DNA of 64,000 bases from assembly GCA_022925895.1 (NCBI GenBank), contig JAKSYS010000001.1, positions 620,001 through 684,000 on the forward strand. Direction: 5' to 3'. This document shows positions 18,397 to 26,985 of the stretch, in pieces; position 1 is the first letter of the stretch, and every line of letters starts with the position of its first letter. A model generated the notes under the pieces. The model was not told the origin of the DNA, did not search any database, and worked only from the letters and a program-made list of their open reading frames with translations. This stretch comes from Fragilaria crotonensis (lineage: Eukaryota; Bacillariophyta; Fragilariophyceae; Fragilariales; Fragilariaceae). The position numbers were made by a program, and so were the translations under genes.

Positions 18397-21300
18397 ATGG
18401 CACCAAAGGCACCCAAAAAGATATACCCAAGAAAGACCTTTGCCTACGACAATGTAGAGCCAAAACCAGCGACAGAGCCGCCTCTGCCAACATCAGATGC
18501 GGCTCGCAATCATGTCCCGAATCCATACGTTAACAGCAAATTGACTCATGAGAAGATCGCTGCCATCCGAGCCAAGGCTACCATCCAAAACCAGGAATTG
18601 GATTATGCACAGCCTTCAGATCTCTACCCAGAGTCATTCCCACACTTTGTTCGAGGTCGCGACTCGGCGCGGGAGTATATCACTAGCCTTTTCACCAGTC
18701 AAATCGCCATCTACGATGGCGCCATGGGCACGATGATCCAGAACTATGCCAAGAGGAACAAACTGGACGAGGAGGAGTATCGCGGCGAGCGCTTCAAGGA
18801 CTGGACATGCAACGTGAAGGGCAACAACGACATGCTGTCCATCAGCCAGCCGCACATCATCAGTGGAATCTACAAGGAATACCTCGAGGTGGGTGGATCC
18901 AACTTGATCGGAACGAACACGTTCTCGTCGACGACCATTGCCATGGCGGACTACGAGATGGAGGCGTATGCGTACGAGTTGAACTATGTTGGTGCTCGGC
19001 TGGCGCGTGAGGCGTGCGACGAGGTGACTGCTCGTGACCCCACCAAGCCGCGCTTCGTGGTGGGCGCCCTTGGCCCGACGAACCGCACGGGCAGTATCAG
19101 TCCCAGTGTGGAGGATCCCAGTGCTCGCAACGTGACGTTTGACGAGTTGGTCGATACGTACCTGGAGCAGGCAGTGGGTTTGATTGACGGTGGAGCGGAC
19201 ATCTTGATGGTGGAGACCATCTTCGACACATTGAATGCGAAGGCGGCGTTGTATGCGATTGGCGAGTTTTTGGAGTTCAGTGGTCTGGACATTCCCGTGT
19301 TTGTGAGTGGTACCTTGGTGGACCAATCTGGACGTACACTGTCTGGTCAGACGGGCGAGGCGTTCTATGCGTCGATCCGTCACGCCAAGCCGATGTGTGT
19401 TGGCCTGAACTGCGCCCTGGGTGCTCAGCACATGGTTCCGTTTGTGGAGCGTCTGGCGAACGTGGTTGAGTGTTTCCTGCATGTGTACAGTAACGCGGGT
19501 CTGCCGAACGCCATGGGCGGGTACGACGATACGCCCGAAACGATGGCGCAACACAACAAGGTGTTTTTCGAGAAGGGCTGGCTGAACATGGTGGGTGGTT
19601 GTTGTGGTTCGACACCTCCTCACATCAAGGCGATCCGCGAGATGTCTGCGAACTACAAGCCTCGCAAGCTTCCAGACGTGGGTCGTCCGAAGATGTGGCT
19701 GTCAGGTCTTGAGGATCTGGTCGTTGAGGACGTGCACAACCAGCACGGCATGCCGTTCTTGAACGTGGGTGAGCGATGCAACCTGAGCGGTTCGATTAAG
19801 TTCAAGAAGCTCATGATGGCTGGTGACTTTGGAACTGCCATGGATATTGCCAAGAAACAAGTGGAGGATGGAGCACACGTGATTGACATCAATGTCGACG
19901 ACGGTATGCTTGATGGACTCGCGGCGATGCAGAAGTTTGTGAAGATCGCCGTAACTGAGCCTGAGATCGCGAAGGTTCCGTTCATGTTGGACGCGTCGAA
20001 GTTCGACATTGTTTTGGCAGGGTTGAAGTGGTGCCAAGGGAAGTGCATCATCAATTCGATCTCGTTGAAGGTCGGCGAGGAGCTGTTCAAGGAGCAGGCG
20101 ACATTGCTGAAGAAGCATGGAGCAGCCGTCGTTGTGATGGCTTTCGACGAGGAAGGTCAGGCGGCGACAGAGGATGAAAAGCTACGCATCTGTAAGCGCA
20201 GCTATGACATTCTTGTGAACGAGGTCCGGTTTCCTCCTGAGGATATCATCTTTGACCCCAACGTGTTGACGATCGGCACTGGTTTGGAGGAGCACAACAA
20301 CTATGCGGTTGACTTTATCAATGCCACTCGACGAATTAAGGAAGAGTGTCCCTATGTGAAGATCTCTGGTGGTATCAGCAACTTGTCGTTCGGCTTCCGC
20401 GGCGTTACAAAGATTCGCGAATCGATTCACTCAGTGTTCTTGCACCATGCCATTTTGGAGGCTGGTATGGATGTGGGTATAGTGAATGCGAAAGAACTGA
20501 TGGCGATTGACGAGTTGGAGGACGACATGCGTGTATTGTGCGAGAATTTGGTATTTAATAAGACTGAAGATGCGACGGAGGACATGTTGCAACGAACTGC
20601 ATACGAACGCGCGTATGCCGATGCGAAGAAGAAGGGACTGCCGTTGCCTCGTAAACCGAGAGTGAAGCCGGTTAATAGGCCGCGATTGACATTTCCGTAC
20701 GATCACATACCCCCGAAACTAGCGACAGAGCCACCTCTTCCGTCGTCGGATGCAGCTCGCAATCATGTTCCGAATCCTTATGCAAACAGCAAACTGACGC
20801 ACGAGAAGATTGCTGCCATCCGAGCCAAGGCTACCATCCAAAACCAAGAACTGGATTATGCACAGCCGTCAGACCTCTACCCAGAGTCATACCCACACTT
20901 TGTTCGCGGTCGCGACTCGGTGCGGGAGTATATCACTAGCTTGTTCACAAGTCAAATCGCCATCTACGATGGTGCCATGGGCACGATGATCCAAAACTAT
21001 GCCAAGAGGAACAAACTGGACGAGGAGGAGTATCGCGGCGAGCGCTTCAAGGACTGGACATGCAACGTGAAGGGCAACAACGACATGCTGTCCATCAGCC
21101 AGCCGCACATCATCAGTGGAATCTACAAGGAATACCTCGAGGTGGGTGGATCCAACTTGATCGGAACGAACACGTTCTCGTCGACGACCATTGCCATGGC
21201 GGACTACGAGATGGAGGCGTATGCGTACGAGTTGAACTATGTTGGTGCTCGGCTGGCGCGTGAGGCGTGCGACGAGGTGACGGCTCGTGACCCCACGAAA

Positions 21301-24300: not shown

Positions 24301-26985
24301 ATCAAGTTCAAGAAGCTCATGATGGCTGGTGACTATGGATCGGCCATGGATATTGCCAAGAAACAAGTGGAGGATGGAGCACACGTGATTGACATCAACG
24401 TCGATGACGGTTTGCTGGACGGTCTCGCCGTGATGCAGAAGTTTGTGAAGATCGCCGTAACTGAGCCTGAGATCGCGAAGGTTCCGTTCATGTTGGACGC
24501 GTCGAAGTTCGACATTGTTTTGGCAGGGTTGAAGTGGTGCCAAGGGAAGTGCATCATCAATTCGATCTCGTTGAAGGTCGGCGAGGAGTTGTTCAAAGAG
24601 CAGGCGACGTTGCTGAAGAAGCATGGAGCTGCTGTCGTTGTGATGGCGTTCGACGAGGAAGGCCAGGCCGCGACAGAGGATGAGAAAGTCCGAATTTGTA
24701 AGCGCAGCTATGACATTCTTGTGAACGAGGTCCGCTTTCCTCCTGAGGATATCATCTTTGATCCCAACGTGTTGACGATCGGCACTGGTTTGGAGGAGCA
24801 CAACAACTATGGCGTTGACTTTATTAATGCTACGAAGAGAATCAAGGAAGAATGTCCCTTTGTGAAGATCTCTGGTGGTATCAGCAACTTGTCGTTCGGC
24901 TTCCGCGGTGTGACCAAGATTCGTGAATCGATTCACTCAGTGTTCTTACACCATGCCATCTTGGAGGCTGGTATGGACGTGGGTATTGTGAATGCGTTGG
25001 AGTTGCTCAGCATTGATGAGCTGGACCCTGAATTGAGAGAAGCCAGCGAGAACCTCGTGTTGAACAAAACGGATAATGCGACAGAAGTTATGTTGGATTT
25101 GACCACTCGTGAGAAGGCTGCTATTGAGCAACGCAAGAAAGGAGGTAATGTTGTCGAGGCTAAGGAGGCTTCCTGGAGAGATTTTGACGCTATCAAGCGC
25201 CTCGAGCACGCTCTGGTGAATGGCATCTCTGAATTTGTTGATCAGGATGTCGAGGAAGCCAGGGCCCAAGCTGAGAAGCCGCTTGACGTGATCGAAGGGC
25301 CCCTTATGGATGGTATGAATGTAGTCGGGGATCTCTTTGGTTCCGGTAAGATGTTCTTGCCTCAAGTCATCAAATCCGCACGAGTTATGAAAAAGGCCGT
25401 CGCGTATTTGCTCCCCTTCATGGAGAAAGAAAAGAAACTAGCCATGGTCGCCGCTGGACTTAATCCTGATGACTTTGATGAGAATGATGACTCTAACTAC
25501 GCAGGCAAGGTTCTTATGGCCACTGTGAAGGGTGATGTTCATGACATTGGCAAAAATATTGTTGCCGTCGTGTTAGGATGCAACAATTACAAGGTCTATG
25601 ACATCGGTGTTATGTGCTCGTGCGAGAAGATCTTGGAAAAGGCGAAAGAGTACAATGTTGATGTCATTGGCTTGTCAGGACTGATCACTCCATCGCTCGA
25701 TGAGATGGTAGTCGTTGCCAAGGAACTGGCCAAGGGTGGTTTCAAACAGCCGTTGCTGATTGGTGGTGCGACCACTTCCAAAATGCACACTGCTGTGAAG
25801 ATTGCTCCAAATTACTTCACCATGGAACATCCCGCAATTCACGTTCTTGATGCATCAAGATCCGTTACGGTTGTTTCATCCCTGTTGAGTCATTTGAAGG
25901 AGGAGTTTGTCACCGACATTATGGAAGAGTACGAAGAAATGCGCGAGGACTATTATGCTGGACTAGAGGATCGCTACTTCTTGACCTTTGAGAAAGCTAA
26001 GGATGCCAAGTTCAAGATCGACTTTGACGCAAGTCCACCGGCGCCAGCACCGAAGCACATGGGAGTTTCTCTGATTGACTCGGTCAAGGTTTCAGATATT
26101 ATTCCTTATATTGATTGGAATCCGTTCTTCCAGACGTGGGAACTGCGAGGGCGTTATCCTAATCGTGGTTACCCCAAAATCTTCAATGACGAGGCCGTGG
26201 GAAGTGAGGCTAAGAAGCTCTTTAACGACGCTCAAACCATGTTGAATGAGATCGCCGCGAGTGGGACCATGTGGCTGAAGGGTGTTGTTGGGCTTTTCCC
26301 AGCCAATCGCAGTGCGGACGGAGAAGATGTTAACGTCTTCGAATCCGAAAAAGATCGCGAGGAGGGCAAAATCTTGGCAACGTACTGTATGTTGCGCCAG
26401 CAAGCCGAGAAGGAAAGCGAAGATCCCTACCTGAGTCAGGCTGATTTTATCGCTCCAACTGGGTACAAGGATCACCTCGGCATGTTTGCAGTTGCTTGCT
26501 TCGGCTGCGACAAATTAGTCGAGAAGTATGAATCCGAGAATGATGACTACTCCAAGATTATGGCCCAAGCCTTGGCCGATCGTTTCGTGGAAGCTTTTGC
26601 CGAATACTTGCATCGCGACATTCGCACCAACCTCTGGGGCTATGCCGCAAACGAGTCGTTGACAGAAGAGGATTTGCTGAAGATCAAATACGATGGAATC
26701 CGTCCGGCGCCTGGATACCCCTCCCAACCGGATCACACGGAAAAGACCACCATGTGGAGCACTATCAAGGCGAAGGAATTGGCAGGTATGGAATTGAGTG
26801 AATCTCTCTCCATGTTGCCAGCCTCGTCAGTGTCTGCCTTGGTGTTCGCTCATCCTGAGTCTCAGTACTTTGCTGTGGGACAAATTGGGAAGGATCAAGT
26901 TCAGAGTTATGCCAACCGAAAGAAGATGGAACTTGGTGCGATCGAACGATGGCTGTCGCCAATCCTTAATTACGAACGCGACTAG
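18397..26985 (+). CDS. B12-dependent methionine synthase with three substrate-binding modules
   Basis: MetH moves the methyl group of 5-methyltetrahydrofolate to homocysteine through cobalamin. Usual length is about 1,230 residues; this uninterrupted frame has 2,862. Residues 14-764, 765-1515 and 1516-2266 are near-identical units, each a homocysteine barrel ([10 protein letters not shown]; zinc Cys 339, 402 and 403 in unit 1, kept at +751 and +1502) plus a pterin barrel ([23 protein letters not shown]). Only unit 3 runs on into the helical cap (about 2260-2350), the cobalamin domain (GDVHDIGKN, axial His 2382; [12 protein letters not shown]) and the AdoMet-binding reactivation domain ([28 protein letters not shown]). 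No targeting peptide, so probably cytosolic. Units 1 and 2 end in a short cap stub and a Pro/Lys-rich linker. All three units keep their catalytic residues, so extra active sites feeding one cobalamin are possible. An assembly artefact is disfavoured by scattered differences between units. Confidence 0.93.
18436..25000 (+). repeat. Three 2,253-bp tandem repeats inside methionine synthase
   Basis: Units start at 18436, 20689 and 22942, an exact 2,253-bp period. Long stretches are identical between units at the nucleotide level, including third codon positions. Differences cluster at unit ends and in a few internal patches, for example DFGTAMD in units 1 and 2 against DYGSAMD in unit 3, and PESFPH, PESYPH and AESFPH in units 1, 2 and 3. 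Similarity in unit 3 fades near 25000 where the cap domain takes over. The pattern indicates recent duplication or ongoing gene conversion. Confidence 0.95.

Follow-up and report, generated by a model that had tools for sequence, protein, structure and literature searches.

The methionine synthase gene of Fragilaria crotonensis

The window, the whole 64,000-nucleotide stretch of Fragilaria crotonensis DNA that was analysed, carries at 18397..26985 of its forward strand a single stop-free frame of 2,862 codons, closed by a terminal stop only; each of the other five frames across this interval contains 26 to 134 stops. Pfam searches of the 2,862-residue product matched PF02574 (HCY) and PF00809 (FOL) in three stretches each, and PF02607, PF02310 and PF02965 once each, giving the domain order (HCY-FOL)x3-CAP-COB-ACT. 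All features lie on the forward strand, and some bounds were carried between modules via the 2,253-nt repeat period:

18397..26985, +, whole coding sequence, multi-module MetH, 2,862 amino acids (ORF analysis, Pfam, NCBIfam)
18709..19644, +, module 1 HCY barrel (PF02574, residues 105-416)
19402-19422 (GLNC) and 19594-19611 (GGCC), +, module 1 zinc Cys (motif)
19768..20487, +, module 1 FOL barrel (PF00809; bounds carried from module 2)
20626..20685, +, internal hinge 1, module 1 to module 2 (from a stretch of 12 protein letters onward; mostly very low model confidence)
20962..21897, +, module 2 HCY barrel (bounds carried)
21655-21675 and 21847-21864, +, module 2 zinc Cys (motif)
22021..22740, +, module 2 FOL barrel (PF00809, residues 1209-1448)
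22879..22938, +, internal hinge 2, connecting modules 2 and 3 (flexibility by analogy with hinge 1)
23215..24150, +, module 3 HCY barrel (bounds carried)
23908-23928 and 24100-24117, +, module 3 zinc Cys (motif)
24274..24993, +, module 3 FOL barrel (bounds carried)
25138..25179, +, terminal linker FOL to CAP (14 protein letters; type unlike the internal hinges)
25192..25410, +, CAP (PF02607, residues 2266-2338)
25504..25791, +, COB, sole cobalamin site (PF02310, residues 2370-2465; DVHDIG within 25534-25563)
26089..26925, +, ACT, AdoMet reactivation domain (PF02965, residues 2565-2843; RPAPGY within 26701-26745)

Judged by its sequence, the product is a cobalamin-dependent methionine synthase (MetH). 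It exceeds the cut-offs of two curated NCBIfam equivalogs, PRK09490 (3675 bits against 1497) and TIGR02082 (3288 bits against 1011), both scores being summed over the repeats. It combines an HCY barrel with three zinc Cys, a pterin-binding FOL barrel, CAP and COB with DVHDIG, and the AdoMet activation domain with RPAPGY; DVHDIG matches the cobalamin-ligand motif DxHxxG. The protein departs from the canonical layout, with HCY and FOL once each, in having three copies, a matter of layout and not of the family models. Its closest named matches by identity are diatom proteins.

The repeat unit measures exactly 751 codons, with a period of exactly 2,253 nt. Together with Pfam and the ORF analysis, this period confirms what the first-pass annotation had proposed, namely three HCY-FOL modules on one cobalamin module in one frame of 2,862 codons. 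Its claim that every copy retains the zinc Cys held as well, since GLNC and GGCC, and with them all three Cys, occur in each of the three units. Over codons 96-450, unit pairs 1-2, 1-3 and 2-3 differ by 15, 15 and 6 synonymous changes and by 0 non-synonymous ones. The unit starts have diverged (first 150 nt 64-81% identical among units), and unit 3 shows 52-53% identity to units 1 and 2 in the bin 2100-2250 nt. Given these silent-only changes and the distinct starts and ends, the three copies are not a single sequence duplicated by mistake.

Distribution of multi-module proteins

A search for the same tandem layout in relatives, suggested by the earlier annotation, showed that two-, three- and four-module MetH are recorded across many algae. 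The comparison covered the 201 best-scoring MetH proteins, a non-random sample, of which 129 were classed as complete by a single full-length CAP/COB/ACT pattern. Two HCY-FOL modules occur in 94 of these, three in 13 (Fragilaria included) and one in 22; two green-algal entries among the 201 have four. No protein among the 201 has CAP, COB or ACT twice at full length. The carriers are diatoms, a pelagophyte, thraustochytrids, green algae and early streptophyte algae; dinoflagellates join them on thin support from incomplete entries (P0094 and P0100, both named partial). The lineage placing of most of the 200 compared proteins rests on sequence likeness; we take 'Chlat1', 'Mesvir1' and 'Botrbrau1' to be Chlorokybus, Mesostigma and Botryococcus. 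Module number differs even in close relatives, with three in Volvox africanus and two in V. reticuliferus, which together with the 22 complete one-module entries implies that extra modules are dispensable.

The one-module counts are themselves uncertain. Two of the 22, P0129 and P0158, start inside an internal junction, and the Phaeodactylum entries P0154 and P0159 start inside HCY; outside the 22, P0134 (Cyclotella atomus) likewise starts within an internal hinge. Contigs of 4.1-4.5 kb, barely exceeding the frame, hold 10 of the 22. P0128, P0132 and P0143, among others, open with a normal N-terminus and could be either genuine one-module proteins or collapsed ones. Where cores are near-identical, assemblies and gene models may conceal the true module number. 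Splicing of the Fragilaria transcript down to an ordinary one-module MetH is unlikely in view of the continuous frame and of the transcript-derived (MMETSP) two-module entries P0023 and P0035 in relatives.

Outside the eukaryotes, a bacterial tandem was sought and not seen in the best 80 of 580 loci, although 7 of the 80 had less than 2,250 nt upstream, so that a further module there could be out of sight. A single full FOL is present in each of these 80; a single full HCY is present in 76, the other four showing partial HCY matches or none. HCY lies in the frame of FOL in 60, in a separate frame in 19, and was not seen in one. Among nine loci from a viral collection, eight have one full FOL and one has none; neither this viral scan nor the neighbours within the 64-kb window yielded anything bearing on MetH.

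The first-pass annotation had also expected a new architecture. The layout of three modules on one cobalamin domain is real, and the accessible parts of the open-access literature searched contain no description of a multi-module MetH; it is, however, not peculiar to one genome.

Age and homogenisation of the tandems

HCY-FOL cores are about 98-99% identical within one protein versus 76-81% between proteins, and junction sequences are conserved by position across species. We compared nearest neighbours in the 49 complete stramenopile-type proteins, leaving out different-protein pairs with cores more than 95% identical and same-class pairs within one protein. For the cores, the nearest neighbour lay within the same protein in 100 of 101 cases. 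For the 45-residue segments following FOL, it fell at the matching position class of a different protein in 89 of 101, in the same protein in 11 and elsewhere in one. These cross-protein neighbours reject a single recent triplication limited to the Fragilaria crotonensis genome. The first internal junction is of a KPR type in 44 of the 49 proteins and the terminal one of an SWR type in all 49. The 57 green-type proteins show a similar but weaker split; in greens the second internal junction resembles the terminal type (9/9), which makes position only a partial guide to junction type there. High core identity within proteins and junctions conserved by position point to old tandems with homogenised cores, and the homogenisation probably proceeded by gene conversion.

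Site conservation, hinges and a proposed working

Among modules without a following CAP, 177 of 180 retain all three zinc Cys, as do 149 of 150 CAP-followed modules of multi-module proteins; several FOL positions show the same residue in every one of 373 modules. Part of an upstream HCY zinc site is lost beside an intact FOL in P0030, P0091 and P0135, and the terminal module of P0045 lacks one zinc Cys. Between the spare catalytic arms and the scaffolding that the earlier annotation had left side by side, the zinc site retained in nearly all modules that lack a following CAP speaks for functional substrate sites rather than a mere scaffold.

In the AlphaFold model (mean pLDDT 75), about 15 residues of the internal junction have very low confidence; they come directly after the FOL helix, where in the last module the CAP linker follows. 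According to the accessible part of PMC10567725, Hcy and Fol move together as a rigid pair, whereas the Fol:Cap linker is flexible. In P0105 an AMPK-type glycogen-binding domain sits in the linker.

We infer activity of the upstream modules, their use of the single cobalamin either in cis or inside an oligomer, and a higher output per cobalamin. A rigid HCY-FOL double barrel, tandemly repeated ahead of a single cobalamin and reactivation unit, would let the single cobalamin domain exchange methyl groups with whichever double barrel is loaded. One barrel could release product and reload while the cobalamin uses another, and the outcome would be more turnovers per scarce vitamin B12. That the duplicated part is the rigid pair, with the flexible linker beyond it, supports this working. 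Further support comes from the two to four HCY-FOL modules beside CAP, COB and ACT that stay single, the retained zinc and FOL residues, the silent-only changes in codons 96-450 and the position-specific junctions beside homogenised cores. The short low-confidence hinge, the variable module number, the damaged zinc sites of P0030, P0091, P0135 and P0045 and the terminal-like second junction of greens weigh against it. In a toy model built on generic rates, turnover per cobalamin rose 1.9-, 2.6- and 3.2-fold for two, three and four modules when reloading was ten times slower than transfer; equal rates gave 1.2-1.3-fold, and fast reloading no gain. A literature search on kinetics found no rate-limiting step of MetH in the texts accessible, and the accessible part of PMC6651669 gives kcat and nothing further on kinetics. 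We assign a probability of roughly 0.45 to several substrate modules serving one scarce cobalamin and raising the methionine made per B12. At a slightly lower probability, this extends to a polyvalent algal MetH, with the tandem old in green algae and streptophytes and in stramenopiles, present also in dinoflagellates, and with conversion keeping the cores functional.

A rather unlikely alternative is that the repeats arose by unequal exchange, were tolerated and were kept alike by gene conversion with no kinetic benefit. The lability of module number among relatives, the cores homogenised within proteins and the three upstream HCY barrels that kept the frame with decayed zinc sites fit such neutrality. 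Against it speak the position-conserved junctions, which imply that two or more modules were retained over a long time, and codons 96-450, with 0 replacing against 6-15 silent changes.

It is less probable still that upstream modules act in trans, serving the cobalamin of other MetH molecules or sharing modules and cobalamins in oligomers. In E. coli MetH, N-terminal fragments function with free cobalamin, and since the low-confidence hinge is short, the cis reach of the farthest module is uncertain and a neighbour's cobalamin may be easier for distal modules. Against this reading, it does not explain why the modules stay in cis on a single chain. Similarly improbable, at slightly longer odds, is that the extra modules bind folate or homocysteine as a buffer, or hold a partner, without catalysis. 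The damaged upstream zinc sites and the domain in the P0105 linker would suit this role, but a complete zinc site in nearly all modules without a following CAP exceeds what a mere spacer needs. An artefact of assembly, gene model or splicing with a one-module true product is very improbable: tandem cores this alike are easily misassembled and 22 complete relatives are recorded as one-module, but the frame is continuous with distinct unit starts and ends, more than 100 other complete proteins, P0023 and P0035 included, have two or three modules, and collapse would reduce the count, the seemingly one-module P0129, P0134 and P0158 beginning inside an internal junction.

Comparison with known systems

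Canonical MetH/MTR (TIGR02082; PDB 9ssp, 8g3h) shares domains, order and motifs with the Fragilaria protein, whose residues 1591-2862 align to residues 16-1265 of 9ssp_A, a chain of 1,265 residues; canonical MetH has HCY-FOL once, the Fragilaria protein three times. In the bacterial MetH with a separate HCY frame (19 of the best 80 of 580 loci), HCY is likewise a detachable module, with a single full FOL and no tandem. Two-module MetH (Nitzschia inconspicua, Hondaea, Chlorella vulgaris and others) follows the same design with two modules instead of three and, when of stramenopile type, has the internal junction type in common with the Fragilaria protein; these entries are annotated merely as methionine synthase or hypothetical protein. 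Among corrinoid systems, mtrA is the corrinoid protein itself. Its duplicated copies in methanogens underwent long-lasting gene conversion, according to the accessible part of PMC4632066; there too a corrinoid methyltransferase system has conversion-shaped copies, but as separate operon genes.

About half of microalgal species need B12, as stated in the accessible parts of the literature. MetH is a central reason for this need, and a higher turnover per B12 in multi-module forms, if true, would tie a gene architecture shared by several lineages of algae to the B12 economy of the waters they live in. Multi-lipoyl pyruvate dehydrogenase E2 and tandem-ACP PUFA synthases are enzyme chains with repeated parts of the carrier system, in which the cheap carrier arm is repeated. 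The Fragilaria MetH, in contrast, repeats the stations and keeps the costly carrier, B12, single. If turnover per B12 rises, the enzyme would be built to spare the vitamin, inverting the usual carrier repetition.

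Three substrate modules on one cobalamin part

The methionine synthase (MetH) gene lies among the following features of the window.

7785–9491, minus strand: family-20 glycosyl hydrolase
9668–11230, minus strand: Rit1-type initiator tRNA phosphoribosyl transferase, adjoining the glycosyl hydrolase
18397–26985, plus strand: MetH
29570–31045: leucine-rich-repeat-like frame, whose Pro/Thr-rich tract (a 210-nt tandem repeat in 2.1 copies) precedes 72-nt repeats
38724–50678: probable Ty1/copia-type LTR retrotransposon, coinciding with a strong local GC skew; RVT_2, zinc-knuckle and Pol_BBD matches lie between its repeats (38724–39627 and 49780–50678; 99.3% identity over 904 aligned positions)

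The first-pass annotation had proposed three homocysteine-folate (HCY-FOL) modules on one cobalamin part (CAP, COB) and reactivation domain (ACT). This is confirmed by a single frame of 2,862 residues with no internal stops, in which Pfam finds HCY and FOL three times each and CAP, COB and ACT once each. Added up over the repeats, the scores for the NCBIfam methionine synthase equivalogs reach 2.5 and 3.3 times the respective cut-offs. The sequence has the motifs of the zinc Cys, FOL, the cobalamin ligand and the activation domain, and the best solved-structure match, 9ssp_A, covers residues 1591–2862, the third module and the remainder.

The repeat has a period of 2,253 nt (751 codons) and comprises an N-terminal extension, HCY, FOL and a post-FOL helix. 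DNA identity between unit pairs is 91–96%, unevenly spread along the unit. Codons 96–450 carry silent changes only (15 between units 1 and 2, 15 between 1 and 3, 6 between 2 and 3), and codons 451–700 have silent/replacing changes of 17/1, 37/9 and 34/10 for the same pairs. Identity is 64–81% over the first 150 nt, and over residues 701–750 unit 3 shares 48% identity with each of the other two. The units are therefore distinct copies with mostly silent differences, and their HCY cores look homogenised. Since units 1 and 2 have in common an ending of the internal type (leading from FOL to the next HCY, not to CAP), an upstream unit was probably copied to give the third module.

Distribution of multi-module MetH

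Relatives were collected with the full-length protein (candidates of 1,574–5,008 residues; best 120 of 264 matches), a one-module query (best 120 of 7,999) and a green-algal three-module query (best 120 of 374), giving 200 distinct proteins plus that of the window, with modules counted by profile search. Calling complete, as the class boundary, any pattern with one CAP-COB-ACT, 94 proteins have two modules, 22 one and 13 three (window included); as top-scoring, length-filtered matches, these are not frequencies. The same tandem layout is thus present in relatives. The remaining 72 of the 201 are partial or split matches, many of them fragments, and include four-module Bryopsis and Haematococcus and three-module Ostreobium and Polarella. 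A second full-length CAP, COB or ACT match was found in none of the 201.

Two modules occur in Nitzschia inconspicua, Epithemia clementina, Hondaea, Mucochytrium, Pleodorina, Parachlorella, Chlorella vulgaris and, reading genus names from codes, Mesostigma and Chlorokybus. Three occur in Chrysophaeum taylorii, Chlamydomonas incerta, Volvox carteri, Volvox africanus, Chlorella sorokiniana, Myrmecia and Trebouxia, and in Polarella and Prorocentrum, whose entries are both named partial. The three-module layout is real, and the repeated architecture is on record in many algae. P0023 and P0035 are transcript-derived two-module entries, and 20 complete two-module proteins from the full-length query are taken as transcripts because their longest contigs, 6,697–7,037 nt, hardly exceed the frame. 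P0105, a two-module protein whose code Mesvir1 we take to mean Mesostigma, carries an AMPK-type glycogen-binding domain (PF16561; about residues 814–879) in the linker between its modules.

No FOL tandem was found in 80 bacterial loci, all with a single full FOL and 73 with upstream room to show another module. A separate HCY frame upstream of FOL-CAP-COB-ACT was seen in 19 of these 80 and in 6 of 9 viral-collection loci (among such loci L017, L030, L056, L069 and L081–L084). Among the open-access matches listed (for example, best 20 of 470 and best 15 of 88), titles and abstract openings report no repeated HCY-FOL modules, nor do the available portions of PMC4523565, PMC11439496 (1,666 strains, Pfam presence), PMC4850488 and PMC6557843 mention them. 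The 21 METH of the last, as excerpted, are apparently one-module forms, since their alignment spans 1,508 positions.

Probable concerted evolution and module turnover

Mean identity between upstream and terminal cores is 98.8% within the 49 stramenopile-type proteins (about 81% between proteins) and 98.0% within the 57 of green type (about 76% between). The nearest neighbour of a core is in the same protein in 100 of 101 and 121 of 123 cases, respectively. Stramenopile-type post-FOL segments have theirs in the same position class of a different protein in 89 of 101 (same protein 11, elsewhere 1), a pattern that is weaker in the green type (65 of 123; same protein 35, elsewhere 23). Stramenopile-type first internal junctions carry the KPR-type signature in 44 of 49 proteins and terminal ones the SWR-type in 49 of 49. 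In the green type, LN is followed by a pair of residues whose second member is other than Cys in 46 or more of the 57 first junctions (two of them not listed), and Cys in 54 of 57 terminal and 9 of 9 second internal junctions.

With cores alike within a protein and junctions kept by position across proteins, we read the tandems as evolving in concert, the first tandem predating those splits that the sample covers in each group, with later homogenisation of the cores, most simply by gene conversion. One origin or several would be compatible with internal linkers that differ among stramenopile, green and dinoflagellate types (36 proteins compared). The green extra unit appears to have a terminal-type ending, unlike the internal type of the window's extra unit.

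Module number is labile: V. africanus has three modules and V. reticuliferus two, both on megabase contigs, and in a 139-sequence tail tree one-module entries are scattered among those with two. Truncated gene models account for some one-module entries. The seemingly one-module P0134 (Cyclotella atomus), P0158 (Corethron hystrix) and P0129 start within an internal junction and are therefore probably truncated multi-module genes.

Competence of the modules and a possible B12-sparing role

In multi-module proteins, the three zinc Cys are intact in 177 of 180 modules without a following CAP, a class that can include the last module of a truncated entry, and in 149 of 150 with one. P0045 has one altered in its terminal module and stops before a complete ACT. 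Three proteins, P0030, P0091 and P0135, have a damaged zinc site in the first HCY beside an intact FOL, with first and second copies 75–80% identical in HCY and 87–95% in FOL; their first modules are natural half-decayed modules. Upstream modules thus normally look competent by sequence, yet can decay. The main rival to a B12-sparing function is neutral maintenance of the tandem by gene conversion.

A B12-sparing function is plausible, in which the single cobalamin would engage whichever HCY-FOL module is loaded. In a toy simulation, turnover per cobalamin rises about n-fold if reloading is at least 30 times slower than transfer, increases 1.9-, 2.6- and 3.2-fold for two, three and four modules when the difference is tenfold and 1.2–1.3-fold at equal rates, and gains nothing with fast reloading; any gain in MetH would depend on this ratio. 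An AlphaFold model of FOL1-linker-HCY2 (741 residues, 30 sequences; mean pLDDT 75, pTM 0.70) places the post-FOL helix at 287–306, followed by a very low-confidence stretch at 310–324 and a mostly confident N-terminal extension running into the next HCY. Because this hinge is short, service of module 1 by the cobalamin of its own chain is not assured, and sharing of modules or cobalamins between chains is a further rival.

In known MetH, as described in PMC10567725, the cobalamin domain visits each substrate domain in turn, and the enzyme needs reactivating roughly once every 2,000 turnovers. A flexible linker joins Fol to Cap, and the Hcy:Fol pair moves as a single rigid body. The repeat unit of the window is the counterpart of that rigid body.
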